NCBI GenBank assembly: GCA_038734945.1
Contig: JAVYOA010000002.1
Span: 310,001-374,000 of the forward strand
Length of the DNA: 64,000 nt
Direction: 5' to 3'
DNA from: Fervidicoccaceae archaeon
GTDB taxonomy: Archaea; Thermoproteota; Thermoprotei_A; Sulfolobales; Fervidicoccaceae
Below, one piece after another: positions 25,426 through 42,509 of the stretch. Under the pieces are notes generated by a model that searched no databases, was not told where the DNA came from, and worked only from the letters and a program-made list of their open reading frames with translations. The first letter of the stretch is position 1; each line of letters begins with the position of its first letter. The position numbers and the translations under genes are program-made.

Positions 25426-27285
25426 CTATGTTGTTCGATGCTTCTGCATGGAAGGATGGGCTATGCTTGTGCTGAACAGCCGAAGCTCCTTCTCAGTAGG
25501 AAAAATCTTTATTGTGATCCTTTTTCTGTCCGTCCTCAATATGCCTGTTCCAATCGGAAAGTTGGCGAGGAGCTCTGACTCAGCATCTGATAGCTTGTAG
25601 ATCTCCTTTATTAGATCTGTTCCTTGGGGCTCCTGCTTTAGAAGCAGGACTGTAGAGGATTGCTCCAATATTGCTCTTCCCTGTATCTTCAATGCAAGAT
25701 CCTCCGCCCTTTGAGTAATATATAGAAAAGCGATTCCGTGCTTTCTCCCCCTCCTAGCTATTCCTTCAAGGAGAGATGCTATGCTGGGAGTTTCCATGAG
25801 GAGCCATGCTTCATCTATGAATAGAACGCTCTTCTCTGCTCTGCTAAGAAGCTTGTTGTAAGTATATGGTGCTATCATTGCTGTTATCAAAAGCTTAATT
25901 CTCCTGCTCTTTATCCCCCTCATCCCAAAGATCACAGATCCTTTCAATTTGGGAGATGTTCCTTCGAAGACATTGGAGTCAGGTGGGATCCCTGCCCCCT
26001 GGAGATATCTGCGGATCTCTGGGCTCTCAGCTCTCTCTATGACCTCCATCAGATTTCCCGAGCTTCTTGCTCCCCTGAATAGCTCCTTTCTGAGGATCCC
26101 CTGAAGTCTCTCTGGAATTCCATATATTTCAGCTAGGATTTCGGATAGCTGTTCAATCTCTATTGCTCCTTCCTTCATCAGCTTTACAGGATCTAGACCG
26201 AGCTTCTGCGACTCCTGGATCTCCACTGCCTCGGCACCAAATACCTCAGCAATTCTAGAGTACTCGCTCTCTGGATCAATACCAACAATAGGGATAGTTG
26301 GATCCATGCTTCTGAGCCTGCTGAGATACAGCTTTGCTGCCATGCTCTTCCCTGATCCTGTGGTTCCCAATATCGCGAAGTTGTAATTGTGCTTGCTCCA
26401 GAGGTCAAGGAGAATTGGAGAGCCCGTTCCTGAAAAGCCAAGAAATACTCCTCCTGGGTCAAAAAGCTCCTCATCGATCAGTGGGAAAAGGGCTTTCATG
26501 CTCTCTCCGCTTGTATAGCTCCTCTCTGCACAGAGAAAGCCCAGACAGGTTTCAAAGTTGTAGAGCTCTTTCTGAATGGGGACGGCCTCAGCATCTAGGC
26601 CAAAGCCTCTGAGCAGTGCTCTGAGCCTCCTCTCTTTCTCGTTCAGGTCATCCATTCCTGGAGATGTAAGTATTAGAAGAAAGAAGAGTTCGATCAGAGA
26701 TGATCCTGACATTATACTTGAGGCCAGTTCCTCGAGAGCCATGGCTTCCCAAGTCTCTTCGGTTCCTCTTCCTCCATTTATTTTCCTTCTTCTTGCCATC
26801 TCTAAAAACGGCAGAGCTCTATCTTTTCCAATTTCTCTGAAGATCAGTGCTATCTCAGATGCTTCGCTGAGGAGAACATATGCAAAACCTTCAGGAAGGA
26901 GGGAAGAATATCTATAGACAGTGAGTACCCTGGCAAGCATTCCGTTTTCAAGAACCAATGTAAATGGGTTCCTCAGACCAATTGATCTAGGCCGATGAGG
27001 TGGCTCAACCTTTCTTGCATTGAAGTGAAGAACATGTGTTCCTGACTTCACCCTCAGATAGAACTCATTTCTAAAAACTGGAATGCTATAGCTCGAATAT
27101 GAAAATGTGTCCTCTATCCTTCTAACGAGGAGGACTCCTTGCTTTGCATTGCTCAATAGAGATGAAAACTCAGAGAGCGCTATGTCTCTTTCCTGAGATG
27201 GAAGAATTGCGAAGCTAACTCCTTGCAGCAAATACCAGTCATGTTCTCCTCCTTTTCTCCATTTTTTATTGAATTTGCCCAGCAT
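25426..27285 (-). CDS. VirB4/TraC-like secretion ATPase
   Basis: 619 residues. The P-loop ILGTTGSGKSMAAKLYLSRL is near residue 307 and Walker B is SVLFIDEAWLLMETP near residue 484, followed by ARRGRKHGIAFLYITQRAEDL, a typical VirB4 sensor segment. The N-terminal domain of about 300 residues has no P-loop, as in VirB4. This ATPase powers pilus assembly and DNA or protein transfer in conjugation systems; the archaeal Ced/Ted DNA import systems use a related HerA/VirB4 ATPase. The VirB6-like gene lies immediately upstream on the same strand, so the two form an operon divergent from the rest of the pilus locus. Confidence 0.8.
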   Translation of the reverse strand: MLGKFNKKWRKGGEHDWYLLQGVSFAILPSQERDIALSEFSSLLSNAKQGVLLVRRIEDTFSYSSYSIPVFRNEFYLRVKSGTHVLHFNARKVEPPHRPRSIGLRNPFTLVLENGMLARVLTVYRYSSLLPEGFAYVLLSEASEIALIFREIGKDRALPFLEMARRRKINGGRGTEETWEAMALEELASSIMSGSSLIELFFLLILTSPGMDDLNEKERRLRALLRGFGLDAEAVPIQKELYNFETCLGFLCAERSYTSGESMKALFPLIDEELFDPGGVFLGFSGTGSPILLDLWSKHNYNFAILGTTGSGKSMAAKLYLSRLRSMDPTIPIVGIDPESEYSRIAEVFGAEAVEIQESQKLGLDPVKLMKEGAIEIEQLSEILAEIYGIPERLQGILRKELFRGARSSGNLMEVIERAESPEIRRYLQGAGIPPDSNVFEGTSPKLKGSVIFGMRGIKSRRIKLLITAMIAPYTYNKLLSRAEKSVLFIDEAWLLMETPSIASLLEGIARRGRKHGIAFLYITQRAEDLALKIQGRAILEQSSTVLLLKQEPQGTDLIKEIYKLSDAESELLANFPIGTGILRTDRKRITIKIFPTEKELRLFSTSIAHPSMQKHRTT

Positions 27286-27328: not shown

Positions 27329-29323
27329 TCAAAGCAGAAAGTCCCAGGAAGCGGAGGGCCTTTTTCTCTTGTGCCTCTCGACGCTATCGCCTTGCTCGAA
27401 TTCTTCTGCCATTAATTTTATGCTATTTCTCAAAGCTTCTTTTCCCCTTTTCAGTACTCCCTCTTTATCTTCAATAGCGCTGTTTCTAAGCTCTTTCCAG
27501 CTCATGCCAGAGGCTTCTTTTAAAAGATGCTCCATTTCATTTGACATATCCTGCTCATTTCCTGCCTCATTTAGTTCCTCCTGCTTTCTTGGAAAGCCAA
27601 CCTTTTGCTTCATCGAAGCAATTCTCTCTGTTTCACTATTTTCCTTCCTTTTCAGCATCATCGGTGAGAGAAGAAAAGAATCTGATTTTCTGCTCAATGC
27701 ATTCCAATCACTAGCATCGTTCTTTTTCGCTCTGCGCTCCTTTTCTCCATGGAGCATGAGTCTGGTGATCCCACTTCCCGGGGGCTCTGAGCTGTACCTC
27801 TCTCTCAAAACTTTGCTGTTGGCGGAACTTATTGCCTTTATGGATCCTCTGTAGAGGGATCCTCCAACGGATGCAATTTTCTCTCCAACAAACGATGCCA
27901 TTCCGCCTCCAAATGCTCCCAGGAGACTGGGGACTATTCCTACTATAATAGGATAGAGAATGGCAAAAGTCACTTCTTTTGCAGGGAGGAGGGAGTTCAG
28001 AACTACTAGGAATATAGAGGTGAGGGGACCTGCTAAAAGAAGACCTGCGAAGATCCCTAGAATATGCTTCACAGATGCTCTCAATGCTGGATGCAGGTAA
28101 GCAATGCTCAACAAGGGAGAGGAGGAGACAATTGTGAGGAGGAGAACATATCTAGCGTATATAACAGTGCTGGAAACTGTTAGGAGAAAAGCAAGCATGG
28201 AGCCGTAGTTTGCCGCGAATGGGATGGCATATCCTAGTATTACACTGAGAGCCAGCTGCCCTGCAATCCATGAGAACACCCATCCAATATCTATGCTGCT
28301 CACAAAATGAAGCGATATTGTATTAAGCATGCTTGCTGTGGCGTTATATACTGAGGGGGCAAGGAATGCTAATGCTACTGCTGCTGAAGCATCCTTTATC
28401 GAATCAATCAGAGCTGAGAAGAAGTTATCCTCTCTGAATGCTCTTGCTGCGATATCGAAGGATAGAAACAGGCCTAGAAATCCCATGGAGGCCTTCAGTA
28501 TATATTCATAGAGATCGTGGAGCTCTCCGCTCTCAGGCATTATGGGAGCTGCTGCCAGCTTTCCTAAATCTAGCACGGGGAAAATTATGCTGGCGAACTT
28601 GTAGAGAGGGCAGAGCAGGCTGAAGGGCCAGTCAAAGGGGCAATACTCACTGTTCTGAATCATTATTGTGAATTCATTGAAGCCCTTTTCTTTATTATCA
28701 GAGACGTTTGCAGTCACTGTATATGCTCTGCTCATTTCTGTTGAGTTGAGTGCCGGATAGGAGTGAGAAAAAAGAATTTCATTGGAATTGGCAACACCAG
28801 TGCTAAATGTTCCGTCGCCCCAATCCACAGAGACGGTATAGGGAGGAGATCCCCCGCTCCATCTGATGGTCAGGTTGAAGGTGAGCTGGTCTGGTGCTGT
28901 TAGAGAAGTTGATGATGGATAGACCTCGACTGCTATAGCTCCTCCTATGTTCCCTCCTGCAAGACTGAACGAGAAGTAGCCCAATCCTATGAAGAGGATG
29001 CTCGCTATTAGGCTCCAGTATCCTTCTCTTCTCCCGATTGCTATGTAAATGGAGGATGAAGCAAGCATAATTCCTGCTAGTACATAGAATATCCAGAGAT
29101 AGCTGGAGGAAGAGCTAGGTGCACCATAAATTGCCTCAATCACGCCCCATCCAAAAGATGCCACAAGGATTGAGGAGAGGCCAAAGACAATGTAGCGGGA
29201 GTAGTTCTCCTTTCCAAGAACTCCAAGCATGATGCCGAAAAGGAGGCTTCCCGCCCCTAGAGCCTCACCTATCCAAAGGGCATAATCGATGAGCTTCAGA
29301 AGCAACCCGTATGAGCTCTCCAT
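27329..29323 (-). CDS. VirB6/CedA-like polytopic membrane protein with PKD domain
   Basis: 664 residues in three parts. Residues 1-125 contain about four membrane helices. Residues about 130-223 form a PKD-type beta-sandwich, with the diagnostic VSVDWGDGTFSTG (WGDGT near 168) and HSYPALN, predicted to be extracellular. Residues about 240-500 contain another group of hydrophobic helices resembling the VirB6/TrbL channel proteins. Residues about 505-664 are a charged cytoplasmic tail. VirB6-family proteins form the membrane channel of type IV secretion, and CedA is the proposed crenarchaeal counterpart. The assignment rests on topology and on coupling with the VirB4-like gene rather than on an alignment. 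Confidence 0.6.
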   Translation of the reverse strand: MESSYGLLLKLIDYALWIGEALGAGSLLFGIMLGVLGKENYSRYIVFGLSSILVASFGWGVIEAIYGAPSSSSSYLWIFYVLAGIMLASSSIYIAIGRREGYWSLIASILFIGLGYFSFSLAGGNIGGAIAVEVYPSSTSLTAPDQLTFNLTIRWSGGSPPYTVSVDWGDGTFSTGVANSNEILFSHSYPALNSTEMSRAYTVTANVSDNKEKGFNEFTIMIQNSEYCPFDWPFSLLCPLYKFASIIFPVLDLGKLAAAPIMPESGELHDLYEYILKASMGFLGLFLSFDIAARAFREDNFFSALIDSIKDASAAVALAFLAPSVYNATASMLNTISLHFVSSIDIGWVFSWIAGQLALSVILGYAIPFAANYGSMLAFLLTVSSTVIYARYVLLLTIVSSSPLLSIAYLHPALRASVKHILGIFAGLLLAGPLTSIFLVVLNSLLPAKEVTFAILYPIIVGIVPSLLGAFGGGMASFVGEKIASVGGSLYRGSIKAISSANSKVLRERYSSEPPGSGITRLMLHGEKERRAKKNDASDWNALSRKSDSFLLSPMMLKRKENSETERIASMKQKVGFPRKQEELNEAGNEQDMSNEMEHLLKEASGMSWKELRNSAIEDKEGVLKRGKEALRNSIKLMAEEFEQGDSVERHKRKRPSASWDFLL

Positions 29324-29624
29324 GCTGACTTCACTCTGTTCAAATGTGCTTTACTGGAAGAACGATAAGCAGGCTTCTTCCTCTCGGGTTTTCTCTATCG
29401 ATAATTTTTCCTTCCTATCTGCCTTTACTGGAAATCTGCCTTTTCCCAATTTCTCAAAAGATGAATTCCGGGAGGCAAAATCATCAACGATGAGGGGGGA
29501 AAGCTGCTGAAGCGTAAAAGGAGAGATATAGCTATTCAAGGGGGATCTCCATTTATAGGAATTCCCTTAAAAAGTTCCTCCTCAAATCATCTTTTAAGGG
29601 ATCCTTTTTTGATTGGGAATCCAA

Positions 29625-29927
29625 ATGGAGTTCGAAGCAAGATACATAAAGTTCATCTGGGTCAGGAACATTTCTCTGCTGAATGAAAAGGCTATTGGAA
29701 TTCTCAGAATGAAGCATATAGTTAGCATATTCATGACAATAGTTCTTCTTTGGGGCGGGCATGGAGAAGGATTGACCTCTTCCTGCATGGGATTGAGCCT
29801 TCTAATTTTCACAGCTCTCTCTGCACTTCTCAGCAATGGAGCAATGAGCTTTGAATCCAAAATAATAGCGCTATTGTATTCCTTCATTGAGCTCCTTTTG
29901 AATATAGCTGGGAGGAGAGACAATTGA
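29625..29927 (+). CDS. Small two-helix membrane protein (VirB3-sized)
   Basis: About 100 residues from ATG 29625; a TTG at 29613 is in frame. There are two hydrophobic segments, about IVSIFMTIVLLWG and SLLIFTALSALLS, preceded by a charged N-terminus, and a third hydrophobic stretch near the end (IIALLYSFIELLLNIAG). Size and topology resemble VirB3, the small partner of VirB4, and the small Ced membrane proteins. It is the first gene of the plus-strand arm and is divergent from the VirB6-like gene. Its stop overlaps the next start (TTGA). Function by analogy only. Confidence 0.5.
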   Translation: MEFEARYIKFIWVRNISLLNEKAIGILRMKHIVSIFMTIVLLWGGHGEGLTSSCMGLSLLIFTALSALLSNGAMSFESKIIALLYSFIELLLNIAGRRDN

Positions 29928-31711
29928 GAATCAATTTGCAATACTCCGTGAAGAGCTTCATCGAGCTTCCGCAGGAAATAGAAGAATTTTCATTGAGCCC
30001 CTTTGATCTGGAGAGCATAATCGCAAAGGGATTCGCTCTTCAACCTAGAATATCCTTGGATGGCATCCATGGAGATACATGGATAGGAAAGAGTAGCTGC
30101 GAGAGGGAGGTATTCATAAACAAGGATAGAGCCATATGCAATCCACTAGCAGGCTTTTCACACGAGAAGTTCGGAGTGGCTTTGACAAAGAACGGAAAGA
30201 AGTTCAGAGTTGAGGGGGGTGACGGATTGAAGCTGGAGGGTGAGAAATGCTCATATATGGAGGTTCCAGGAGCAATTATCATTTCAATATATGAGAAGCC
30301 ATATGCTCATATCGTAACATCCGACTATCTCTACGGTTTGAATGTTCATGAGAGGGCATACAGAGGGGAGCCGAGATCTGCTTCGGCTGGCTACAGAGCC
30401 TATACCACAATCTATGCTGACGGAAGGAGCCAGATATTCTGGGGAGGAAAAATAGAGGAAACCGGCATGCTCGCTCAGAGGGCATTGAGAGTTCAAAATT
30501 CAACATTTGTCCTCTCCTCTAGATGGTTAGTAAGGCTGGAGGAAGATCTTCCGAGACCTTTGGTCTTTCTTGGAGAAGAAGCTGATTTTCTGGGCCTCAT
30601 TAACGAGCAACCGGTATTCATGATAGGAGGAGCTCCCTATAGACTTGAGGAGGCCTCTCTTATTCCATTGAGACGCGTTGGAAAGCTTTCTCCTTCAGCT
30701 TCAATCTCAATCTACGATATAGCTGTTGTTTCCCTTCCGGGATGGCTCACAGTATATGATGAGGAGGAGAAAGAGATTCTGAAGGTTTCAAAGGGGGAGG
30801 ATTCTTGGTGCTGGGCAGTTAGGAAGAGCGTATTCTGCTGCACTAGAGGGCTATGCGGCGAGATCTCGGAAGGATCGTCGCAAATTTTTGTGAATGCTGA
30901 GAATTCTGAGGAAAGAGATCGCCATTCCATTGTTATAGATACGGAAGTCCCAGTGGTCATAGATGAAAATGGAGAAGAAAGGCTTCTCAGACCAGGAGAA
31001 AATGCCAAAATTAGCAGAAGCGATGTGAGTATTTTTGAGCCCTACATTTTCGATGTTAGGCTGAGGCACATTCTAGGAGCCGCCTCAGCTCCTATTCCCT
31101 CATCCCCCAGGAAAATCAAGCTGGAGGCAGAGGCAAGAGTGTTTGAGAGCACAGGGATCCATGAGTGCGGAAGGCCTTTTTTCCTTGAAGTAGAAGTTCT
31201 ATCCTTAGAAGCTCCGATGGAAATCAGGCTCTTTATTGAAGGAAAAGAAGTCAAGAGAGGTGAGAAGCTCGAGCTTTGCTTGGAAGAGCTTCCAGATTTT
31301 CTGCATCCCAGAGCATTTGATCCCGTTACCCAGAGATCGATTGAACTTGATCCTCTTATTGTGAACAGAGTGTTTGTGCATGAGCCCAGCCTGGGAATTG
31401 AGATCGAGCACCATGAGGGGAGAAGCGAGATCCTGCTGAAGACAAATGCTGAAGAGGTGAGAGGAAAGCTGATATGCAGCAACAGAGAATTTGGGCTGAA
31501 AATTCCCAAAAGCTTAATTGAGAACTGCCAGCTCCCTGCTTACTTCAGCTTGGAGCTTAGAAAGAACGGCTTTATATATCAGAGGAGGAAGGATATAGTA
31601 ATTGAAGACCTTGACGAGGACATTGTGAAAAAGCTGAAGAATGGAGAGAACGAGAGCAGAATTGGCGGATTTCTGATTCGATATTATGCTTCTCTCGGTC
31701 CTAGCTCTTAG
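29924..31711 (+). CDS. Unknown 595-residue soluble protein of the pilus locus
   Basis: No recognised family. There is no signal peptide or membrane helix. It is rich in short beta-strand patterns (for example KPYAHIVTSDYLYGLNV and DIAVVSLPGWLTVYDEEEKEIL), suggesting a beta-propeller or beta-sandwich body. Six or so Cys occur in short groups (SWCWAVRKSVFCCTRGLCG), unusual for a cytoplasmic protein but compatible with disulfides in hyperthermophiles. It is translationally coupled to the small membrane protein before it (4-nt overlap, TTG start). In Sulfolobales ups operons a similarly large unknown gene, upsX, accompanies the pilus genes; whether this is related cannot be told by eye. Confidence 0.7.
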   Translation: MRINLQYSVKSFIELPQEIEEFSLSPFDLESIIAKGFALQPRISLDGIHGDTWIGKSSCEREVFINKDRAICNPLAGFSHEKFGVALTKNGKKFRVEGGDGLKLEGEKCSYMEVPGAIIISIYEKPYAHIVTSDYLYGLNVHERAYRGEPRSASAGYRAYTTIYADGRSQIFWGGKIEETGMLAQRALRVQNSTFVLSSRWLVRLEEDLPRPLVFLGEEADFLGLINEQPVFMIGGAPYRLEEASLIPLRRVGKLSPSASISIYDIAVVSLPGWLTVYDEEEKEILKVSKGEDSWCWAVRKSVFCCTRGLCGEISEGSSQIFVNAENSEERDRHSIVIDTEVPVVIDENGEERLLRPGENAKISRSDVSIFEPYIFDVRLRHILGAASAPIPSSPRKIKLEAEARVFESTGIHECGRPFFLEVEVLSLEAPMEIRLFIEGKEVKRGEKLELCLEELPDFLHPRAFDPVTQRSIELDPLIVNRVFVHEPSLGIEIEHHEGRSEILLKTNAEEVRGKLICSNREFGLKIPKSLIENCQLPAYFSLELRKNGFIYQRRKDIVIEDLDEDIVKKLKNGENESRIGGFLIRYYASLGPSS

Positions 31712-31906
31712 CTTTGTGAGATGCTTTTGAGTGAGGCGAAACAGCTGTATCTATTCTCATTTCAGCAGAGCTGTGCTTTTGGCTGAAGGTATAGCTGATA
31801 TGGAATAGATGATGCCTATTCACTTTTGAATTGTACACAATTTTCCTGAATCGAATCCATGAAGGATTGCCTTTTTCAGCAGTTTCAAAATAGATATGTT
31901 TGAATA
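31701..31906 (-). pseudogene. C-terminal fragment of a gene split by the IS607 element
   Basis: The minus frame ending at TAG (plus-strand 31701-31703) is open upstream to beyond 31930, through segments such as FETAEKGNPSWIRFRKIVYNSK and HISYTFSQKHSSAEMRID. It has no start of its own and is protein-like. It is on the same strand as the truncated gene at 33718-34068 on the other side of the element. The simplest reading is one gene of about 185-190 codons cut by the insertion. The intact gene would overlap the convergent 595-residue gene by 11 nt at their 3' ends. Confidence 0.5.
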
Positions 31907-31929
31907 TTGGTGGGTATAGAAGAATATTG

Positions 31930-32537
31930 ATGTCCGAAAAGCTCTATACAATCAAGGAGGCGAAGAAGCTTCTTGGAGTCACCACCTGGACTATTCAGCA
32001 ATGGGATAGGCAGGGCAAGATTAGGTGTGTTAGAACTGTGGGGGATGAAGGAGGATCCCTGAAAGTGAAATAAAACGCATCCTTGGTTTAAGAGAGGAAA
32101 GAATTGTCGTAGGGTATGCAAGGGCTTCATCTTCAGCACAAAAGGATGATTTAGAAAGACAGAAACAACTTATTTCAAGCTACGCTAAGGAGAAAGGTTA
32201 TGGTGAAATTCAAGTTTTAACGGATGTTGGTTCTGGACTTAACGAAAAAAGAAAAAACTTCCTGAAACTCTTAGATATGGTTTCGGAAAGGAAAATCTCT
32301 AAAGTTATAGTCGCTTACGAAGATAGGCTCACGAGGTTTGGTTTTGAAACCTTAAGGAAAATGTTCTCAGCTTTCGGAACAGAAATAGAAGTAATAAATC
32401 ATGAAGGGAAGACACCTCAAGAAGAGCTTGTGGAAGACTTAATCACCATAGTTTCCCACTTCGCTGGAAAGCTCTACGGTATGAGGTCACACAAATATAA
32501 GGAGGTTGGCGAAGGTGTCAAGAAGCTTGTTGGTTAA
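31930..32537 (+). pseudogene. tnpA: IS607 tnpA serine recombinase, frameshifted
   Basis: The first 47 codons from ATG 31930 encode the MerR-like helix-turn-helix (SEKLYTIKEAKKLLGVTTWTIQQWDRQGKIRCVRTVG) and run into TAA at 32071. The continuation [38 protein letters not shown] lies in another frame starting about 32049. A single lost base in the run GGGGATGAAGG (32041-32051) explains this. The catalytic domain downstream is otherwise intact: the nucleophile Ser is in YARASSS, with [17 protein letters not shown] later. The element is therefore probably unable to move by its own recombinase. Confidence 0.85.
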
Positions 32538-33717
32538 GGCATACTCAATACCGCATAACCTTGAGGTAAACGGGCTTATAGAGGATTACATGCGTGTCCT
32601 CAACGCTATCTTGGAGGATCTATGGAAGAACATTGCATGGGAGAGGAGGGGTAAGAGGCTTATACCGTTTCCTAGGAAGGACAAGACCTTCAGGAAGGAG
32701 CTTAGGGACAAGTACCTTAAGGGTTGGGTTTATTCCAAGCATTACGTGGACTCCGCGATTAAACAGGCTTATTCCGTGCTCGAGTCCTGGAGGAAGAGGT
32801 ACCTCCGCGGGCGGGCTGGAAGAAGAAGACCTGAGTTGAAGAGGAAGTTCGTGAGGGTCAAGGAAACCCTCTACAGCTACAGGGATGGTGTGCTCAGGAT
32901 TTCGATTAAACCCTATGAAGAAAGCGTGACCGTAGATTTGAGGAAGGCGTGGTGTTTGGATAGGATAAGGGGATTGGAGCTCGGCGAACTCATACTTAAA
33001 CAGGACAGGCTCATAGTTACTGTTAAAAGAGAGGTGGAGCTAAAGATTAAAGACCCAATATCATGGGACACGAACCTCTTAACCTTAGATGGCTTTGATG
33101 GTGAAAAGCATTACTCGATAAGCCTGAAGGAAATCTACACAATTCATAGAACCTATGAGCTGAAGAGAAGGATTATCCAGAAGCTACATGGAAAAATGAG
33201 GAAGAAGCTCCTGGAGAAGTACCGCTCGAGGGAGAGGAACAGGATTGACGACGCGCTGCACAAGCTGGCCAGGCAGCTCTCAGGCAGGACAAATATCTTT
33301 GAAGACCTGAAGAACTTCAAGGAGAGGGTGGCTAGGACGAAGAATAGGAGCATGAACAGGCAGAACAGCAAGCACGACTACATCAAACTGCAAAAGTATG
33401 TGGAATACAAATCTGCGTGGAATGGTTATGCTACCATATATGTGAAGGCGAAGGGCACCTCGAAGACCTGCTCCAAATGCGGGTACTACAACAAAGACCT
33501 AAGGGGAGCAGTCTTCAAGTGCCCAAAATGCGGACTTGTAATCGATAGGCAGAGGAATGCATCAATAAACATTTGGAAAAAGTTCCTTAGGATGTGGGGA
33601 TTCATGGGTTCACCCCGAAAGGAGCTAACCCCGATGAGCCCTCCAATGAACCCTGAGGAGGACAAGAGGGATGAAGCTCAAGGACTAAGTATGGATTCCA
33701 TACGTATCCACACTTAG
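32506..33717 (+). CDS. tnpB: TnpB RNA-guided nuclease of the IS607 element
   Basis: 403 residues. The RuvC-like residues appear intact: an Asp in [12 protein letters not shown], a Glu in [13 protein letters not shown] and an Asp in [15 protein letters not shown] zinc finger ([10 protein letters not shown]...FKCPKCG) lies before the last Asp. The N-terminal helix-turn-helix-like and beta-barrel segments are of usual length. TnpB cuts DNA guided by an RNA made from the element's 3' end and helps retain the element. The TTG start overlaps tnpA by 32 nt. Since tnpA is broken, tnpB may be maintained by its own activity or be recently stranded. Confidence 0.9.
33590..33716 (+). ncRNA. Candidate TnpB guide RNA (omega RNA) scaffold
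   Basis: The last codons of tnpB overlap a foldable segment. GGGTTCA (33606-33612) pairs perfectly with TGAACCC (33647-33653), enclosing GGAG/CTCC (33621-33624 with 33641-33644). In TnpB systems the guide scaffold overlaps the 3' end of tnpB and continues to the element end, with the guide taken from flanking DNA, here beginning about 33717. Position and folding fit, but transcript ends are unknown. Confidence 0.35.
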
Positions 33718-34159: not shown

Positions 34160-34534
34160 ATGGCAAAAAGGAGCATTTCCTCGATTTTGGTAGCAATCGC
34201 CATGACATTGATTATTCTTGGTATGTTCACAGCAATCTACAGCAAACTGGAATTTTCTACAAACGCTCTTCGGGAAAAAACTCAGAGCTCAATATCTATG
34301 GCCACAGTCCTAGCTCTCAGGAATGGAGATAGAAACTATGAAGTTATCATATACAATTACGGTGATAGAATCATTGAGAAAATGACAATAGCATATAGCA
34401 ATGGCACTGCAATTGAGTATGAGAATGTCTCTTCAATAAAGCCAAAATCTCTGGTAACGCTGGTTGTCAGTGGAATCCCAATTTTCTATATGGATGCTGC
34501 TGGGGAAACAGGCAGAATAGAGGTGGTCAACTAG
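34160..34534 (+). CDS. Pilin-like protein 1 (class III signal peptide)
   Basis: 124 residues. A short basic head (MAKR) is followed by one hydrophobic stretch SISSILVAIAMTLIILGMFTAIY, the architecture recognised by the archaeal prepilin peptidase PibD. The rest is a small soluble domain ending with a DAAGETGRIEV strand. It is predicted to be a pilus subunit or minor pilin. ATG 34160 has a strong ribosome site and promoter. Its stop overlaps the next start by one base. Confidence 0.75.
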   Translation: MAKRSISSILVAIAMTLIILGMFTAIYSKLEFSTNALREKTQSSISMATVLALRNGDRNYEVIIYNYGDRIIEKMTIAYSNGTAIEYENVSSIKPKSLVTLVVSGIPIFYMDAAGETGRIEVVN

Positions 34535-34968
34535 TGAGAACCAGGGCCCTTGCAGAAGCCATGGCCATAGTGCTAATAGCGATTGTCTCTCTCCTTTTCA
34601 CCATTTTTCTGAGCACAGTGAATGAGAGAATCGCTGGAGAAACTGCGGAGAGAGCAGAAATGGTCAGCGATATGTCGCTCAGGAGCGTGGAGACTCTGTA
34701 CTTAAGCTTAAGCGAGAGTCATCCGTGCATAAAGAGCAATTTGAGGACTCAAATAGTGGCGCTCATTTTCTTCAGTCCAAATACGACGGAGCTATACAGG
34801 CATGATTCCAACCCGATCGAGGTCCAAGTAGGCTCCTGCATTCAGCTGAGCGAAATAGAATCGAAATCTCTCAAAGGTGTATGGAAGCTTCTCGTGATAA
34901 CTGTCCGCGGAAACGTCCACAGCTGGAACTCCACATTTCAGATTCAAGGTGTGAAGATTGAACCATAG
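34534..34968 (+). CDS. Pilin-like protein 2 (class III signal peptide)
   Basis: 144 residues from GTG 34534. The start MRTRALAEAMAIVLIAIV is a class III signal with Glu near mature position 3-5. The soluble part has two Cys (SHPCIKSN and VGSCIQL) that could form a disulfide, and ends with VHSWNSTFQIQGVKI. Likely a second pilin or minor pilin. It overlaps both neighbours by 1 and 11 nt, so the three genes are translationally coupled. Confidence 0.72.
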   Translation: MRTRALAEAMAIVLIAIVSLLFTIFLSTVNERIAGETAERAEMVSDMSLRSVETLYLSLSESHPCIKSNLRTQIVALIFFSPNTTELYRHDSNPIEVQVGSCIQLSEIESKSLKGVWKLLVITVRGNVHSWNSTFQIQGVKIEP

Positions 34969-36763
34969 GGGAATTGCGGAGGGAATTGGCGTCATTCTTT
35001 TAGCCCTGATGCTTACATCCTTCATCTCCATTTTAGCCTACGGAACGAGGCATGCAGAGAGCATAATCAGAACTGAGAGCAGCATCCAGTCAATATTAAG
35101 CTTGAGAAGAGCAGAGAGGATAGTATTTGGGGTAAATGGAAGCACATTGCTGGCAAAGAGCACTATTGAAACTGAGGCAGTTATGCTAGTAGTTTTCTGG
35201 AGCAATACTGTTTACTATTCCAATGAGAGCAGAATCCCTCTGCAACCTGGAGACTGGACTCTCCTTCCATTGCCACAGGAAGTAGCAGCTCTCATACTTT
35301 CATCAGGAAATGCTTCTCTAGGAATAATAACTCGCTACGGGAACTTCTTCGTTTTCACTCCGAATGATCTGGGCTCAATGAATGCATCGGTAAATCAAAT
35401 TCAATTTCTGAGATCTGGGGTCCTGCAGAGGGCAGGGAGCTTCAGTATTTACTATGTTGGAAATAGCTCGGCAATATATTCCTCATATCAAGCGACTGTG
35501 AGCGGTACATATGTAAAAGATTATTCAATGGGAAATGTTTTTGCCTCGCTCTCTATGTCCCTCAGCTCCTTTACTCCAATTTGGTCCCCCATTCTCATAT
35601 TCTATTCAGGAGATGTCTCCATAACTGAGAAATGGAACTGCAGCATTGTGAACGTGACTGTGGAAGATAGGGCTGGAGGAAAGATCAGCTTCTCTGCCTA
35701 TGCTAATGGAACGCTTATCAATAAGAGCACTGTGAATACCACGCAGGGCAGGTCGCTCAAGCTATTTTTATTTGATTTCTCATCGCAGAAGTACTCGAGC
35801 TCAGACGTGAAGATATTCTCGCTTCCAAGCGGTCCTGAGGTCTATGTCGTTTCAATAGTTCCCGTTCTATTCTCTGGGAGCTTCTACATTTACGCTACTT
35901 CGATTCTAGATGGAAGCTTGCTTTCCCTCAGCTACGGATCTCAATCCTCCAGCTCAAGCTCCTATTTATCCCCTCCAGGGAACATGGCTACTCCGAGCTA
36001 CATATATGCTGGATTTGTGAGCTTGATAGAGGGGGGATCTTACATCTATTATGATGGGAGCTTCAATTCCAGAACATCATCTCCCCACAGCATAAGCATT
36101 GAGCTGATAGACCAATCAACTCTTTCTGCCGCGATTGCTACAATCAATGTTGCTACCGCACTGCTTACAGACTACTATGGGGCTGGATATATAAGCTTCT
36201 TGGAACCTCCGGTGAATGTCAGCATGACTGGATTCAGCACTGTAATAAATGCGAAATCCTGGGATCTAAACAGGACTCCTGGAAGCTCAAACAGTTACTA
36301 TCAAGCACAATCTAGCATAACTTTTCCTGGAAGCTGCAGCGCCCAGGTCCTGGGAAAGATCTCGCTCTCAATTTCGTTCACAAATGCGGGAGGAAGCGCT
36401 ATTAATGGACCTCAGCCTAGTCCTCCACCCTACATCCCTACAGCACCTCCGTCGATATACTACATTCAGACTCCGATGCCAATGAATGGCACATCAATAG
36501 CAACGACAGTCTACTTATATGCTGAGAGAATTAACAGCAATCTCACTGCTAACTACATTAAAATAAATTTGGAGGACGGATCTTCTGAGAGCTTTTGGAA
36601 CGTTCCCTTCTCGATTATTTCCTCTCCGATAGGAGAGGTGTATGGGATAGCAATACCTCTAGATGGAGATTCTCGATATTCTTTGAGCATAACTGTGCTC
36701 TTTAACGGACAGAGGCTGGCGTATGGAACATTCTACAATTATCTTGCTCCATCTAATCCTTGA
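34958..36763 (+). CDS. Giant pilin-like surface protein, 601 residues
   Basis: The N-terminus MNHRGIAEGIGVILLALML is a class III (PibD-type) signal with RG before the cleavage site, yet the protein is four times longer than a normal pilin. The body is rich in Ser, Tyr, Asn and Thr with many N-glycosylation sequons (NGS, NSS, NCS, NVT, NGT) and a poly-Ser segment (SQSSSSSSYLSPPG), as in secreted beta-sandwich adhesins. It may form the pilus tip or an adhesin, a role that large minor pilins have elsewhere. TTG start with overlap. Function is inference from architecture. Confidence 0.7.
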   Translation: MNHRGIAEGIGVILLALMLTSFISILAYGTRHAESIIRTESSIQSILSLRRAERIVFGVNGSTLLAKSTIETEAVMLVVFWSNTVYYSNESRIPLQPGDWTLLPLPQEVAALILSSGNASLGIITRYGNFFVFTPNDLGSMNASVNQIQFLRSGVLQRAGSFSIYYVGNSSAIYSSYQATVSGTYVKDYSMGNVFASLSMSLSSFTPIWSPILIFYSGDVSITEKWNCSIVNVTVEDRAGGKISFSAYANGTLINKSTVNTTQGRSLKLFLFDFSSQKYSSSDVKIFSLPSGPEVYVVSIVPVLFSGSFYIYATSILDGSLLSLSYGSQSSSSSSYLSPPGNMATPSYIYAGFVSLIEGGSYIYYDGSFNSRTSSPHSISIELIDQSTLSAAIATINVATALLTDYYGAGYISFLEPPVNVSMTGFSTVINAKSWDLNRTPGSSNSYYQAQSSITFPGSCSAQVLGKISLSISFTNAGGSAINGPQPSPPPYIPTAPPSIYYIQTPMPMNGTSIATTVYLYAERINSNLTANYIKINLEDGSSESFWNVPFSIISSPIGEVYGIAIPLDGDSRYSLSITVLFNGQRLAYGTFYNYLAPSNP

Positions 36764-36813
36764 AGGATTTTTTCTAGCTTTTAAAGCTCTCCTTCATCTT
36801 CTGGGGATGAAAA

Positions 36814-37095
36814 ATGCATTTGCACTTCTACATTCTGAGCTTCTTCTTAAAGTTAGAGTCCCAGGTATTTACAGTATCTCCGGAGCCTCCTCCTGGAATA
36901 AGCGAGGCAATCATGAAGCTGCTTTCATGGTTAGCCTGGATAGGGTGGGTATCAGTTGCTGCTGCTTTAATTGCAGGGGGAATTAGCCTAGTCCTTGGCT
37001 ACATGGAAAGAGGAAAGAGGCTGATTCTTGGAGCCATTCTTGGAGCCCTGATTCTGGCATTCTACAGCGCTATTATCTCAGGGCTCATAGGATAA
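36814..37095 (+). CDS. VirB2/TedC (CedA1)-like conjugative-type pilin
   Basis: 93 residues. Residues 1 to about 25 look like a signal sequence (MHLHFYILSFFL core), followed by PEPPPGISEAI. The mature part has just two hydrophobic helices: LLSWLAWIGWVSVAAALIAGG (about 36-57) and LILGAILGALILAFYSAIISG (about 70-90). They are joined by a short basic turn GYMERGKR. This helix-turn-helix with a positive loop is the fold of bacterial conjugative pilins (TraA/VirB2) and of the archaeal Ced/Ted pilins. It is distinct from the four class III pilins around it. A GGGGATG segment precedes the ATG. A T-rich terminator follows. Confidence 0.65.
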   Translation: MHLHFYILSFFLKLESQVFTVSPEPPPGISEAIMKLLSWLAWIGWVSVAAALIAGGISLVLGYMERGKRLILGAILGALILAFYSAIISGLIG

Positions 37096-37106
37096 ATATA
37101 CAGAGA

Positions 37107-37123
37107 TTTTTTTGCCCTTTTTT
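37107..37123 (+). terminator. T-rich terminator after the VirB2-like pilin
   Basis: Two runs of six or seven T (37107-37113 and 37118-37123), 12 nt after the pilin stop codon, fit archaeal oligo-T termination. A highly expressed pilin gene could be partly insulated from the genes downstream by this. Confidence 0.45.
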
Positions 37124-37154
37124 AAGCCCCTTTTACTCTCTTGGAGGGATATAC

Positions 37155-37616
37155 TTGAGAAAAATCTGCAGAGCAAGAAAAATGAGGGGGATGAGCTCGG
37201 AGCTCATAGTAATGATATCCGTGGTCCTCATAGCGATGGTAGCAGTCTTTGCTCTTAGAGGATGGCTCTCCACCCAGCTAGGGAGGATGGGCAACATAGA
37301 CATGGCAGAGGCAACCTTCACCAGCACTTCAGTCAATCCAAGTAGCATGGTTATTGTAATTAATGTGAAGAATCTCCTTCCGAACCAAATAAGCATCATA
37401 GGATTTCAGATACTTCTCTCCAATGGAACTGTGCTCACTGGAAATTCAGCAGGTATTTCAACTTCGCCTGCCCTTCCAACAGCAGTAGCAGGAAAATCCG
37501 ATGGACTCTTAACCGTGTTCCTGAACAACATGCAGAATAGCATTCTGAAGATCAGCGTGAATGTTCAAGACAATTCGACTGGACAGACACAGTGGATTTC
37601 TGCGGTTGGAAGCTAA
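37155..37616 (+). CDS. Pilin-like protein 3 (class III signal peptide)
   Basis: 153 residues from TTG 37155, supported by a GGAGG site 6-7 nt upstream; ATG 37182 is an alternative. The segment RKMRGMSSELIVMISVVLIAMVAVFALRG contains the RG/MSSE cleavage pattern of archaeal pilins. The mature protein, about 140 residues, is a beta-rich domain (NVKNLLPNQISIIGFQILLSNGTVL) with weak similarity in style to archaellin and adhesion pilins. It lies directly before the assembly ATPase, so it is likely the main type IV pilin of this locus. Confidence 0.78.
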   Translation: MRKICRARKMRGMSSELIVMISVVLIAMVAVFALRGWLSTQLGRMGNIDMAEATFTSTSVNPSSMVIVINVKNLLPNQISIIGFQILLSNGTVLTGNSAGISTSPALPTAVAGKSDGLLTVFLNNMQNSILKISVNVQDNSTGQTQWISAVGS

Positions 37617-37647
37617 CTTCTCGGTCCTCATGGGGAGGCTAAAAATA

Positions 37648-39066
37648 ATGGGGATCATCCTGGAAAGAAAATTTTTCTCTGAAAAAGAAAGGAAAGTAGG
37701 GACACTTTTTTGTAGTGAGGATAAGCACCTCCCCCCTGAAAGCTCCACCCCGCACGAAAATCTTCCTTTGAGGTATAGAGTAGGAGCATATGATGTTCAA
37801 ATAGTGAGGAGCAACGGTGTTTATGAGTACCGCATATGTACAAAGAAGGAGCTGGGCGATCTTCATAATCTCATAGAGTCCAGGCTAGAGGAGATAATTC
37901 TCCTCATGAGAAAAGGGGCAGATGCAGGAGATGTTCTAACAAGCGTGCTCGGAATTCCTAGAGAAAAGGTCCCTGATGCCTTGTTTGTGCTCAGGAGCAT
38001 TCTTGAATATGGGAAAATCCAGGCTCTGCTCGGCGATGCTCACATCCAGGATATAAGCATTGAGGGGGCTGATAGAGTATGGATAAGGCACTCGCTCATT
38101 GAAAAAATGGATGAGGATCAGGACTTCATTCCTACCAATATATTTTTTCAGAGCGTTGAGGAGGTGCTAGTGCTGCAGCAGATAATTGCAACGAAATGCA
38201 ATGTCTACGTCTCCATGAGCAATCCCATTGTGGAGGCACAGCTTCCAGCTGCAGATGGAGGACATAGGGTTCACCTAGTCTTCCCATCTATATCTCAGAA
38301 CAGACCTGAAATAGTAATAAGAAAGAGACTGCAGCGCCCTCCAAGCATTAAGAATCTCTCCGAGAGGGGGGTAATCCCAGATGCTGCTGTGGAGCTTCTA
38401 AGGGGAATAATTGCTGCCAGAGCTTCAGCAATAATAGCAGGACCACCTGGTTCAGGAAAAACTACACTTCTCAGAAGCATACTTCACTACTTGGTACCGA
38501 GAACATGGAAGGTCCTCGTAATTGAAGATACAGGCGAAATAGATCCGCCTCCAGGGTCTCCTTGGACAAAGTACACAACGTTTGAGCTAGGTTCAGTGAA
38601 AATAGATCTTTTCGATCTGGCCAAGGCCTCTCTCAGGGCTTCAGGAACAAAGATCATAGTTGTTGGTGAGACGAGAGGCTCTGAGGCACAAGTCCTCTCC
38701 CAGGCAATGCTTGTGGGATTGGGAGCGCTCACAACTTTCCATGGGTCCAGCCCAAGCGAAGTCATCTCCAGGCTCATGAGCCCTCCAATCAACTTGAGGG
38801 CTCCCCAGATAGGAATGTTCCAATATTTGTTCGTACTTGGATTTGGAAAATCTCCGAGAAGGCAGCTAAAGTCACTGTCGGAGCTAAGCTACAGCGTAGA
38901 GAAGAAAATGGTTGAGCATAGAGTGATTTGGTCCAGGGAAGTTGATGGAATGAAAATTGACCCCGAGGAAATGCTTCGTAGGAGTGAGAGGTGGAAGGAG
39001 CTTCTGAAGAGGTCAATGGATGCTTCACATGGTGGAGATGAAGTTGAGGATCTCGCACAAGCTTAG
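37648..39066 (+). CDS. Type II/IV secretion ATPase (archaeal pilus assembly, GspE/TadA-like)
   Basis: About 472 residues from ATG 37648, which follows a GGGGAGG site; longer starts overlap the pilin gene. Walker A is IIAGPPGSGKTTLLRSIL (near residue 265), the Asp-box is VLVIEDTGEIDPP, and Walker B/His-box is IIVVGETRGSEAQVLSQAMLVGLGALTTFHGSSPSEVISRL. The N-terminal domain carries the ISIEGADRVWI and VSMSNPIVEAQLPAADGGHRVHL segments of the GspE superfamily. It hydrolyses ATP to assemble the pilus, together with the platform gene that overlaps its 3' end by 47 nt. Confidence 0.92.
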   Translation: MGIILERKFFSEKERKVGTLFCSEDKHLPPESSTPHENLPLRYRVGAYDVQIVRSNGVYEYRICTKKELGDLHNLIESRLEEIILLMRKGADAGDVLTSVLGIPREKVPDALFVLRSILEYGKIQALLGDAHIQDISIEGADRVWIRHSLIEKMDEDQDFIPTNIFFQSVEEVLVLQQIIATKCNVYVSMSNPIVEAQLPAADGGHRVHLVFPSISQNRPEIVIRKRLQRPPSIKNLSERGVIPDAAVELLRGIIAARASAIIAGPPGSGKTTLLRSILHYLVPRTWKVLVIEDTGEIDPPPGSPWTKYTTFELGSVKIDLFDLAKASLRASGTKIIVVGETRGSEAQVLSQAMLVGLGALTTFHGSSPSEVISRLMSPPINLRAPQIGMFQYLFVLGFGKSPRRQLKSLSELSYSVEKKMVEHRVIWSREVDGMKIDPEEMLRRSERWKELLKRSMDASHGGDEVEDLAQA

Positions 39067-40492
39067 GGAATCCTGCAGAAGGCATCTGATATCACTGTAT
39101 CCGGGAGTTGAGGAATATGCTGGAGCTAGGAGAAGGCTGAAAATCCTCTGCATTTTAACAGCGACTTCTCTTGTCATGATATCAATTGAGCTTGCTTTTA
39201 GAGCAAGCGCCTTCCCTCTCCTTATCCCCCTTCTCCTCTTTCCAATATTGACTGCACTTGAGATTTCTGCTGCTTTTGTGAGGAAAGCTCTGCTCAATGA
39301 AAGGCTTGAGCAGGAGCTTCCATTCCTGGTAGTTGCCTCTGCCTCTTTTTCCAGAACTGGGCTCGAGCTATCAGAGCTTCTAGAGCATGTTGCCAAGAGC
39401 AGCGTTTTCAGAGGAGCAAGGATGATAGGCGAGAAATACATAATTCTATCGAGATTATTTGGAAGGAATCAGGCCCTGAACTTTATCTCCAAAATTATTT
39501 CAGGAAAGAGCAGGTTCCTCCTATCGGAGTACAGCGTTTCTCTTTTAATAGGAACGTCAGTTCAGTTTCTCAGAGAGAGGGCAGGCGATATACTTAAGAG
39601 CTCAGAGACAATGGTTGACAGGGCAATCCAGCTCAGAGCAACAATTGCAATGATAGCAATAGTTCTCTATGGCCTATTTCCCAGCATCCTCATTGGAATG
39701 GCATTTATCCAGTCAATGAGCATCAGTGAGAGTGAAAACAGCTCTGGCTCCTTGGCCCTGCTCACAATGGGATTGACTTCCGCTAGCTTGCCTGCTGTTT
39801 TAGCTGCAATACCAGACTATCCTCTTTCCATGCTAGTTCTACTGTCCCAGAAGGCAAGCAAAATCTTTAGGGCTCTCTTCATAATTGGACTTATTGCTTT
39901 GATTTTGCCATCAGTGCTCCTCATCTATTTTCCGGAAGAGAGCTTCTCAGAGTTCGCTGTGATCTCTGCTGCAATCTCATGCATTCTCGGCATCCCATCT
40001 TTCTTTTATCCTCTTCTCTCAATTATAACTAGCAAGGTCGATCTCATAGCAGAGGAAATGTTGAACCATGCGAGAGTATGGAGGAGCCTTCACTTATTCA
40101 GATCCGCTGAGCTCGAAAGATTGGAAAGAAGGGATGTGAAGCCATGGATAGCAGAATTCATTGCTGAGATGCTGGAATTCTTCAGGGGCCTGGGAGACTG
40201 CAATCCCTCAATATTCGAGACTTTCGTTTCATTTATCAGTGAGAGCAGGAGAAGTGCTATGCGATTTACTATGAGTCTAGTACTCCTCATGATAGCTTCC
40301 ATAGCTTCCCCTATAATGAATGCAATGATTATCAGAATTTCTCCAGCCCCCAATAGCTCTCTATTGCTATCAGGGTATGTGAGCACGATTGCCATGGGAT
40401 TAATCGCGGGAAAGCTCTCCATAGGTAAAAACATGAGCACTTTTCTCCCGTCCATTTCCGCAATGCTCTATATCATTCTCGCCCCTCTCTGA
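39020..40492 (+). CDS. Pilus assembly platform protein (GspF/TadC/ArlJ-like)
   Basis: 490 residues with about eight or nine hydrophobic segments arranged as two T2SSF modules. The first cytoplasmic module contains LEQELPFLVVASASFSRTGLELSELLEHVAK, a typical TadC/ArlJ pattern, and the second lies around HLFRSAELERLERRDVKPWIAEFIAEMLEF. It forms the membrane base on which the ATPase drives pilin polymerisation. It overlaps the ATPase gene by 47 nt, so the two are coupled. Its length and double module match the UpsF and AapF group. Confidence 0.85.
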   Translation: MLHMVEMKLRISHKLRESCRRHLISLYPGVEEYAGARRRLKILCILTATSLVMISIELAFRASAFPLLIPLLLFPILTALEISAAFVRKALLNERLEQELPFLVVASASFSRTGLELSELLEHVAKSSVFRGARMIGEKYIILSRLFGRNQALNFISKIISGKSRFLLSEYSVSLLIGTSVQFLRERAGDILKSSETMVDRAIQLRATIAMIAIVLYGLFPSILIGMAFIQSMSISESENSSGSLALLTMGLTSASLPAVLAAIPDYPLSMLVLLSQKASKIFRALFIIGLIALILPSVLLIYFPEESFSEFAVISAAISCILGIPSFFYPLLSIITSKVDLIAEEMLNHARVWRSLHLFRSAELERLERRDVKPWIAEFIAEMLEFFRGLGDCNPSIFETFVSFISESRRSAMRFTMSLVLLMIASIASPIMNAMIIRISPAPNSSLLLSGYVSTIAMGLIAGKLSIGKNMSTFLPSISAMLYIILAPL

Positions 40493-40523: not shown

Positions 40524-42509
40524 ATGGATTTTGCTTTTCAAGAAGCCAATGGTTTATCCCATCCAGAAAAGATTCTCTCATATTTTATCTGCGTGATCAA
40601 GATGCTCCTCGAGATATTTCCCAGACTAAAAGGGACAAAGCTCAACATCAACATCTTAGGACCAAGCTTCACATTCTGCATAATGAAAGATTCCGCTAAG
40701 CTCCACATACTGCTGGATACATCGACGTCGCCAAACACACTGCGAACCTACTTTGAATCTAGGCAGTTTAGCTACGATAATTTCCTGGAAGCACTAGGAA
40801 GATCAGTCTATGCATCTGAGGCAAGGCTCAAGAGAGAGGAAGATTTTTGGCTTGGCAATTTCAGCATCTCAGATCTTCCGGGAACTATGGATTCACTTGA
40901 CTATCCATCTGCTGTGTGCTTATCTATCTCGAGGAGCTTGGAGCTCAGCAGGATTTTTTTGAAGCATTCAGCAGGACTCATCAAGAGGGCATCGAAAAAC
41001 GGAGATTACTTTCTCAGATCACAGGCTGAAATCTTTCGAAATATTATGAATAGGGTCCTACTCTTGAAATTAGTTCTGCTGGCTGGGGGAAGAGAAGATA
41101 TTAGAAAAATAGAGAAGCTGATTGATTCCCTTTCTATCGCTAAGCTCAGCTGGATGCGACACATTGTGAATACAAGTCAAGAAATATCGGAGCTTCTGAA
41201 GCCCCCCACAATTAGCCTTTTCGAAACTCTCATTGGGAAGACTAGAAAGATAACAGTTCTCGAGGAAAATTTGAGAGAGATGATTTTCCTTCCGGATCCC
41301 TCCATTTACAGAATAGACTTTTCCAGAGGTTCCCCTCTGCCCCTTCTCTCTGCAGAGAGAGTTGGAAAGAGAGCGTTCAGGATTGGTCTGCTTGAGAATG
41401 GAAAGGAGTTTAGATTGAGCGTTGAGGATCTCTACAGGCATACATACATAATTGGACGAACTGGCTCAGGAAAAACCAGCTTCATGAAGCTCCTAGTTCA
41501 CAGGATGAATGATCTGGGCGATCTCTCGCTGATTGTCGTGGATCCTCACGGAGATATGGCTAAGGAGCTTGCCGAGGAAGCTGCAAATTCAAAATATTTC
41601 CATCCAATCAACAGCCCGTTTGGCATAAACCCCCTTGATTTGCCGAATATGAATAGCAGAGAGCACGCTGTTTCAATAGCTGTGGATGTTGCTCTAGAGA
41701 TCTTCAGGGATGTGCTTAGACTCACTGAAAGCGCTGTGAATGTTAAATACATGCTCCAGGTGATCCTCAGAATTCTGTATGAAAAAAATGACTCGCCAAC
41801 TCTCGCGCAGCTCTATGATATGATATTGGATCTTCATGAGGGGAAAATAGAGAGGATCACAAGCGATGAAAAATGGGAAAAGCAGCTCAGAGTTCTTCAG
41901 AGGATGCAGAGCCAGAGCTTCATCTCAGCTCTCTCGAGGCTGGAGCCATTTGCACATGACAAGCTCCTCCTTAGAATAACCAGCAGAACAACTGTTGATT
42001 TCAGCGAGCTCATGCAGCCAGGGTCTCTTGCTCTATTCTCTGTTCCCAAGGCTGACCTTGGAGAGCACCTAGCTAAGCTCATTGCATCAGCTATAATTAT
42101 GAAGCTCTGGTTTCAAATTCTTGCGAGAGCGAGAAGTGATGAGAAGAGAACTCCCGTGTTCTTGGTTGTGGATGAATTCCAATTCATAGCTGATTTCCCG
42201 ATTATTGATACTATTCTATCGGAAGCTAGAAAGTTCGGGTTGCATTTAGTGATGGCCCACCAACACACTGGACAGATCTCGAGGGAACTATTTCAGTCAA
42301 TTATGACCAACTGCGCTGTGAAAGTCAGCTTCGCAGTCGAGGGGGAAGATGTAGCAAGACTCTCCACAATGGATGCTGCTTTTTCAGAGGCCATAGAGAG
42401 AAGCCTTGGCTCCCTCACTGTTGGAAAAGGCATTGTAAAAATAACTGGAAATTCTGGAGAGCAGCAGCCGCCTCCTGCAATCGTTACCTTTGATTATATT
42501 GAGAAATAG
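40524..42509 (+). CDS. TraD/VirD4/CedB-like DNA-translocation ATPase
   Basis: 661 residues. Walker A is YIIGRTGSGKTSFMKLLVHRM (near 311), with IVVDPHGDMAKELAEEA just after, and Walker B is FLVVDEFQFIADFP (D550-E551). Then come SEARKFGLHLVMAHQHTGQI and IMTNCAVKVSFAVEGEDVARLS, the motifs of the HerA/TraG/VirD4 coupling-ATPase group. The N-terminal 300 residues are mostly helical, with one hydrophobic segment near 15-30 (ILSYFICVIKMLLEIF) that may anchor it. In conjugation this ATPase pumps DNA; in Sulfolobus CedB is needed for DNA import. It is the last gene of the plus-strand arm, 31 nt after the platform gene. Confidence 0.8.
   Translation: MDFAFQEANGLSHPEKILSYFICVIKMLLEIFPRLKGTKLNINILGPSFTFCIMKDSAKLHILLDTSTSPNTLRTYFESRQFSYDNFLEALGRSVYASEARLKREEDFWLGNFSISDLPGTMDSLDYPSAVCLSISRSLELSRIFLKHSAGLIKRASKNGDYFLRSQAEIFRNIMNRVLLLKLVLLAGGREDIRKIEKLIDSLSIAKLSWMRHIVNTSQEISELLKPPTISLFETLIGKTRKITVLEENLREMIFLPDPSIYRIDFSRGSPLPLLSAERVGKRAFRIGLLENGKEFRLSVEDLYRHTYIIGRTGSGKTSFMKLLVHRMNDLGDLSLIVVDPHGDMAKELAEEAANSKYFHPINSPFGINPLDLPNMNSREHAVSIAVDVALEIFRDVLRLTESAVNVKYMLQVILRILYEKNDSPTLAQLYDMILDLHEGKIERITSDEKWEKQLRVLQRMQSQSFISALSRLEPFAHDKLLLRITSRTTVDFSELMQPGSLALFSVPKADLGEHLAKLIASAIIMKLWFQILARARSDEKRTPVFLVVDEFQFIADFPIIDTILSEARKFGLHLVMAHQHTGQISRELFQSIMTNCAVKVSFAVEGEDVARLSTMDAAFSEAIERSLGSLTVGKGIVKITGNSGEQQPPPAIVTFDYIEK

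Follow-up and report, generated by a model that had tools for sequence, protein, structure and literature searches.

The window considered here, the whole 64,000-nucleotide stretch of the Fervidicoccaceae archaeon contig JAVYOA010000002.1 (positions 310,001 to 374,000), belongs to a genome of 1.34 Mb in 9 contigs. It contains, just upstream of an rRNA operon, a cluster of pilus and type IV secretion system (T4SS) genes, whose features are listed below (coordinates, strand, description; a slash marks the PibD-like site).

25426-27285, -, VirB4-family T4SS ATPase, 619 aa (NCBIfam VirB4-like CD1110, 1.2e-31, and TraC, 8e-31; Pfam AAA_10, 9e-13)
27329-29323, -, VirB6/CedA-like polytopic channel protein, 664 aa (homology in related clusters and plasmids)
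29924-31711, +, protein of unknown function, 595 aa (kept in related clusters L029, L034, L035, L037 and L158)
34160-34534, +, class III pilin (weak UpsB/UpsA match, NCBIfam UpsB 2.4e-4, under cut-off; PibD-like site)
34534-34968, +, class III pilin-like protein (site RA/LAEAMAIVLIAIV)
34958-36763, +, large class III pilin-like protein, 601 aa (site RG/IAEGIGVILLALML; homolog in genome G004)
36779-36785, +, putative TATA-box-like element TTTTAAA, 28 nt 5' of the pilin ATG
36814-37095, +, predicted VirB2-like conjugative pilin gene (ATG start, 93 aa, stop 37093-37095)
37107-37134, +, T7-T6-T4 tract, archaeal-type terminator, directly 3' of the pilin gene
37155-37616, +, class III (PibD-type) pilin (site RG/MSSELIVMISVVLIAMVAVF; kept beside the pilin in relatives)
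37561-39066, +, type II/IV secretion ATPase, FlaI/UpsE/VirB11 superfamily (Pfam T2SSE, 7e-23)
39020-40492, +, predicted polytopic TadC/UpsF-like platform protein (from position and topology only; directly 3' of the ATPase in relatives)
40524-42509, +, VirD4/TrwB-like (also CedD-like) ATPase, 661 aa (Pfam DUF87, 4.5e-14, and TrwB_AAD_bind, 1.2e-13)

The VirB4, VirB6-like and VirD4-like genes share 17 kb with the pilin gene, so that the pilin, which the initial annotation considered the key evidence for a conjugation-type pilus, is not the only key evidence for one. In NCBIfam, the ATPase at 40524-42509 matches both CD1115 (VirD4-like, 1e-16) and CedD (4.8e-16), and that at 37561-39066 matches the archaellum ATPase FlaI (2e-44) and VirB11 (2e-22). 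The ATPases of the window match CedB weakly, and none of the 18 genomes searched, G000 included, encodes a protein over the curated CedB cut-off (NF041017). The presence of VirB4 in this Fervidicoccaceae cluster agrees with Wu et al. (2025, PMC11868833), who reported that Fervidicoccales and Desulfurococcus have VirB4 in place of CedB/CedD. A role as VirB3-like partner was weighed for the 115-aa ORF at 29594 and rejected, since its product is unlike the VirB4-adjacent small proteins of relatives.

The class III pilin genes lie on both sides of the 93-codon ORF. As had been proposed for these neighbours, a [KR][GAS]/ site followed by a hydrophobic segment is encoded at 34160, 34534, 34958 and 37155; no PibD-like site with a following hydrophobic helix is present in the 93-codon ORF, whose product, by this site test, is therefore not a class III pilin. 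The 601-aa pilin-like protein is possibly an adhesin. No family match was obtained in Pfam or NCBIfam for the product of 39020-40492. In G001, which belongs to the same genus, the T2SSE ATPase (L023:1700-4351, minus strand) is interrupted in frame by several hundred extra residues between query positions 391 and 392, possibly an intein. The 595-aa protein, which is without a family match, may be a counterpart of UpsX, and the MerR-type HTH, truncated resolvase and TnpB-like genes at 31900-33717 are what is left of an IS607-type element within the cluster.

The 93-residue protein and its family

The ORF at 36814-37095 is real and conserved: homologs in other genera display 44-59% identity in a single-sequence search, and a leave-one-out profile, built from 13 homologs with the window sequence left out, retrieved it at E 8.6e-35 as the sole match among the 379 ORFs of the window, so that it is more than a chance reading frame. 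The TTTTAAA element directly follows a T6/T4 tract that trails the upstream gene, and from this arrangement the pilin gene appears to have its own promoter. The T-rich terminator that had been described directly 3' of the gene is indeed there, with runs of T7 (37107-37113), T6 (37118-37123) and T4 (37131-37134) within 45 nt of the stop codon, a T-run content reached by just 0.016% of 45-nt windows on either strand; a terminator of its own suits a high-copy subunit.

The protein combines two hydrophobic helices and a short basic loop, as do VirB2-class pilins, and both elements of this earlier description held. Its hydropathy maxima lie at residues 43 and 70, within the helices 29-60 and 64-92 of the AlphaFold2 (AF2) model (pLDDT 84-96 across residues 31-90), and the basic turn GYMERGKR forms the inter-helix loop, where it matches the family pattern G-x-x-E-x-[GA]-[KR]-[KR], in which the G is invariant. 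The first helix is preceded by an S/T-P-x-PPPG linker (PPPG being residues 25-28), which the family alignment shows as a constant S/T-P-x-PPPG-I/V together with W residues in helix 1. The signal-like start was upheld in part: it is weak in the 93-aa protein, where the N-terminus MHLHFYILSFFLKLES/Q has a short hydrophobic run only, and is clear in several relatives, with Sec-type signal peptides in G046, G141, G051 and the plasmid members, while relatives G001 and G140 begin directly at the mature part without a signal peptide. The mature 93-aa protein possibly starts from about Q17.

Searched by itself, the 93-aa protein showed no match at a meaningful level in Pfam or NCBIfam and matched no solved pilin in the PDB by sequence, and the family profile found no PDB match at E < 4, the CedA1 and VirB2 structures not being reached. 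A Foldseek search of the PDB with the AF2 hairpin also gave no significant match, bare short hairpins being poorly discriminating in such comparisons. Among the 25 members of the extended family, 12 match the Pfam model T4SS_pilin (PF18895; best 6.6e-11) and two match TrbC/VirB2 (PF04956); an archaeal member, from G060, is over the T4SS_pilin cut-off (2.6e-10). The Pfam pilin models are passed only by distant members of this extended set, the nearest relatives having no match or one under the cut-off. Holins and ATP synthase c-like subunits, which the initial annotation had named as outcomes that would speak against a pilin, came up in neither the Pfam nor the PDB searches. That the protein is such an unrelated small membrane protein, as a two-TM hairpin of like size might suggest, is hardly credible, given that no family of this kind occurs in Pfam among the 25 members, that the PDB search with the family profile was empty, that the T4SS context is constant and that a reversed-profile control returned nothing.

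Gene order and homology to the channel protein

In the window as in relatives, the pilin is encoded together with T4SS VirB4 and VirB6-like genes. Across 165 genomes of the class, a VirB4 of the window type was present in 23 of the 26 genomes with the pilin, versus 18 of the 139 others (Fisher 4.6e-14, a value that overstates independence because the genomes are related). The local arrangement depends on the family. In the Fervidicoccaceae, the VirB2-like gene is located between class III pilin genes, 54-96 bp from the homolog of the 37155 pilin, and in relatives of this family it lies ~0.7 kb from the type II/IV secretion ATPase gene. In the Desulfurococcaceae, its distance is 23-35 bp to VirD4 and 134-356 bp to VirB4. 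Taken alone, the Fervidicoccaceae order would be compatible with a small membrane protein that serves the adjacent class III (type IV) pilus and not the conjugative apparatus, a reading that we consider very unlikely, since the protein lacks a PibD site, since its Desulfurococcaceae counterpart is encoded beside VirD4/VirB4 with the type IV pilus genes 5-7 kb away, and since homologs occur on conjugative plasmids, where type IV pilus genes were not seen.

Pilin and T4SS are also linked through the channel protein. The 664-aa product of 27329-29323 has no Pfam match, and its homologs are channel-like proteins in related clusters and on the plasmids pNOB8, pING1 and pKEF9. It is composed of an N-terminal pilin-like hairpin (residues ~6-65), a weaker, partial second match (~80-113), a predicted beta domain in which the sequence is Ig/PKD-like, and further TM helices; its AF2 model, of low confidence (mean pLDDT 51), shows the N-terminus as two hairpins. 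When the pilin profile was aligned by hhalign with the N-termini of the VirB6-like channel proteins, a match of 97.5% (E 8e-12) was obtained, and one of 95.6% (E 1.3e-8) with the chromosomal channel proteins alone, versus at most 0.7% for control stretches past column 120 of the channel and 4.8% for a reversed control. The second, partial match just downstream of the first scored 62-83%. Beltran et al. (2023, PMC9905601) described homology between the CedA1 pilin and the N-terminus of CedA, and a fainter one between VirB2 and VirB6. As a positive control, CedA1 of Aeropyrum pernix matched CedA by BLASTP at 2e-8, the pilin of PDB entry 8dfu being found as an exact match in genome G032. Based on the hhalign comparison of pilin and channel N-terminus, the family thus shares the diagnostic relation of the CedA1/CedA and VirB2/VirB6 pairs.

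The same homology could be read differently, namely that the 93-aa protein stays in the membrane as a subunit of this T4SS that does not polymerise (an accessory of VirB3 or CedA2 type, or a part split off from the channel), contributing to the pore and forming no filament. CedA1, too, was initially regarded as an integral membrane protein (PMC9905601), and polymerisation of the 93-aa protein is a prediction. We regard this reading as improbable, though as the most serious of the alternatives: the proven pilin CedA1 stands in the same relation to CedA, many relatives have, in the manner of secreted pilins, a cleavable-looking signal peptide and a mature N-terminus rich in Pro, plasmid loci encode a second small 2-TM protein that is another candidate for the accessory role, and the gene's own terminator fits a subunit made in many copies. 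The proposal of a VirB2-like conjugative pilin stands as the best explanation, considering its fold, the T4SS genes, the co-occurrence with VirB4, the homology to the channel and the relatives that match Pfam pilin models; the 93-aa gene very probably encodes the major subunit of a VirB2-class conjugative pilus belonging to a chromosomal archaeal T4SS, a pilus whose subunits would polymerise and serve in DNA transfer.

Comparison with the Ced, Ted and Ups systems

The archaeal mating machines known so far are Ced and Ted. CedA1 (A. pernix, PDB 8dfu) is, like the 93-aa protein, a chromosomal archaeal VirB2-class pilin with two helices and a basic loop, and shares homology with the N-terminal part of its own VirB6-like channel protein. 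It differs in that no sequence similarity was found (hhalign of CedA1 against the family profile, P 0.55 over 34 columns; 8dfu not matched by the profile) and in that CedA1 was reported to be unprocessed and lacks the Pro-rich linker. The Ced system relies on CedB/CedD, whereas VirB4 and a VirD4-like ATPase are encoded here. TedC (Pyrobaculum calidifontis, PDB 8dft) is likewise a two-helix pilin, encoded beside TedA (VirB6-like) and TedB (VirB4-like), and the VirB4-type ATPase and VirB6-like polytopic partner of the window resemble these by type. TedC loses its signal peptide by cleavage, and several relatives of the 93-aa protein appear to carry one; more generally, a Sec signal peptide is present in TedC and the bacterial pilins, absent from CedA1 and weak in the 93-aa protein. 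PDB entry 8dft was not matched by the family profiles A1 and A4. Ted loci carry ParA/HerA/Rad50 (PMC9905601); unlike them, the window locus has class III pilins, a T2SSE ATPase, a TadC-like protein and VirD4. The earlier description of the protein as TedC-like or CedA1-like is therefore retained for its architecture and not for its sequence, for which CedA1 gave no match and 8dft none in the PDB search. As CedA1 was not matched and 8dft was not hit in the PDB search, the family is handled provisionally as a separate chromosomal lineage, and we file the 93-aa protein, as judged from sequence, as a putative VirB2-class pilin and not under CedA1 or TedC.

The neighbouring genes recall the Ups pili of the Sulfolobales (UpsA/B/E/F), with clustered class III pilins, a FlaI/UpsE-type ATPase and a TadC-like protein, the protein at 34160 being a weak UpsB match; the VirB2-like gene differs in having no PibD site. 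In Sulfolobales the ups and ced loci are apart, whereas, given this neighbouring Ups-like set, Ups-like and Ced-like parts share one cluster here. The machine could operate as follows. Sec would insert the pilin as a lipid-bound hairpin, and VirB4 would lift it out of the membrane; pilin and lipid would then polymerise on the VirB6-like protein, with the pilin-like hairpin of the latter as a possible docking platform, and the basic loop would line the pilus lumen in the way known from F-type pili. Single-stranded DNA transfer, either import as in Ced or export, would be driven by the VirD4-like ATPase, and the class III pilins, the FlaI/UpsE-type ATPase and the TadC-like protein would together assemble an Ups-like type IV pilus drawing cells together. 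Having Ups-like and Ced-like functions side by side supports the notion that pili for aggregation and for mating work as a single device.

Candidate pilins on archaeal plasmids

According to one study (PMC9905601), a pilus protein cannot be recognised on conjugative plasmids of archaea, and a review of 2025 names only VirB4 and VirD4 homologs on them (PMC12857230). A pilin profile made solely from chromosomal sequences retrieved one small secreted protein, annotated as hypothetical, from each of five Sulfolobus plasmids, of which pNOB8, pING1 and pKEF9 are conjugative and the other two bear a T4SS; pARN4 (L174) gave no match to this profile.

pNOB8, L171:29617-29946, candidate pilin
pING1, L172:22310-22630, candidate pilin
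pKEF9, L173:5544-5873, candidate pilin
pRT2 (T4SS plasmid), L170:14986-15321, candidate pilin
pHGQ25 (T4SS plasmid), L175:11971-12330, candidate pilin

Among the 9,328 ORFs of all collected loci, every match with E < 0.01 fell on a small pilin-like protein or, in those inspected, on the N-terminal part of a VirB6-like protein. With the profile reversed there were 0 matches, and block-shuffled profiles gave at most seven weak ones, those listed being family members; these controls speak against the concern that any hydrophobic two-TM protein would be caught by the profile. The pNOB8 candidate directly precedes the VirB6-like gene, in the way that tedC precedes tedA. These plasmid relatives are, on their sequences, the best candidates yet for the missing pilus protein of the classic archaeal self-transmissible plasmids. 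The family ties a chromosomal system of Fervidicoccaceae and Desulfurococcaceae to plasmids, with one testable gene per plasmid; since pM164, a pNOB8-like element of S. islandicus, has already been genetically edited (PMC9899855), the missing archaeal pilin becomes testable, provided that the pM164 homolog is confirmed. What was unexpected is the reach of the family, from a chromosomal lineage next to an Ups-like locus to single-gene plasmid candidates. An evenly balanced, broader proposal is that it constitutes a third lineage of archaeal conjugative pilins apart from CedA1 and TedC, which would include the pNOB8-type pilins WP_176705373.1, WP_192964118.1 and WP_192963572.1 and would have been domesticated on Fervidicoccaceae and Desulfurococcaceae chromosomes together with an Ups-like type IV pilus as one combined DNA-exchange locus.

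The VirB4 tree places the chromosomal systems apart from most of the plasmid ones (support 96/93), the pARN4 branch being very long and the inner chromosomal forks partly open. On plasmid-type elements, a second small 2-TM protein is encoded beside the pilin (L149:14726-14941 and L148:14166-14474) and is possibly a CedA2-like partner.
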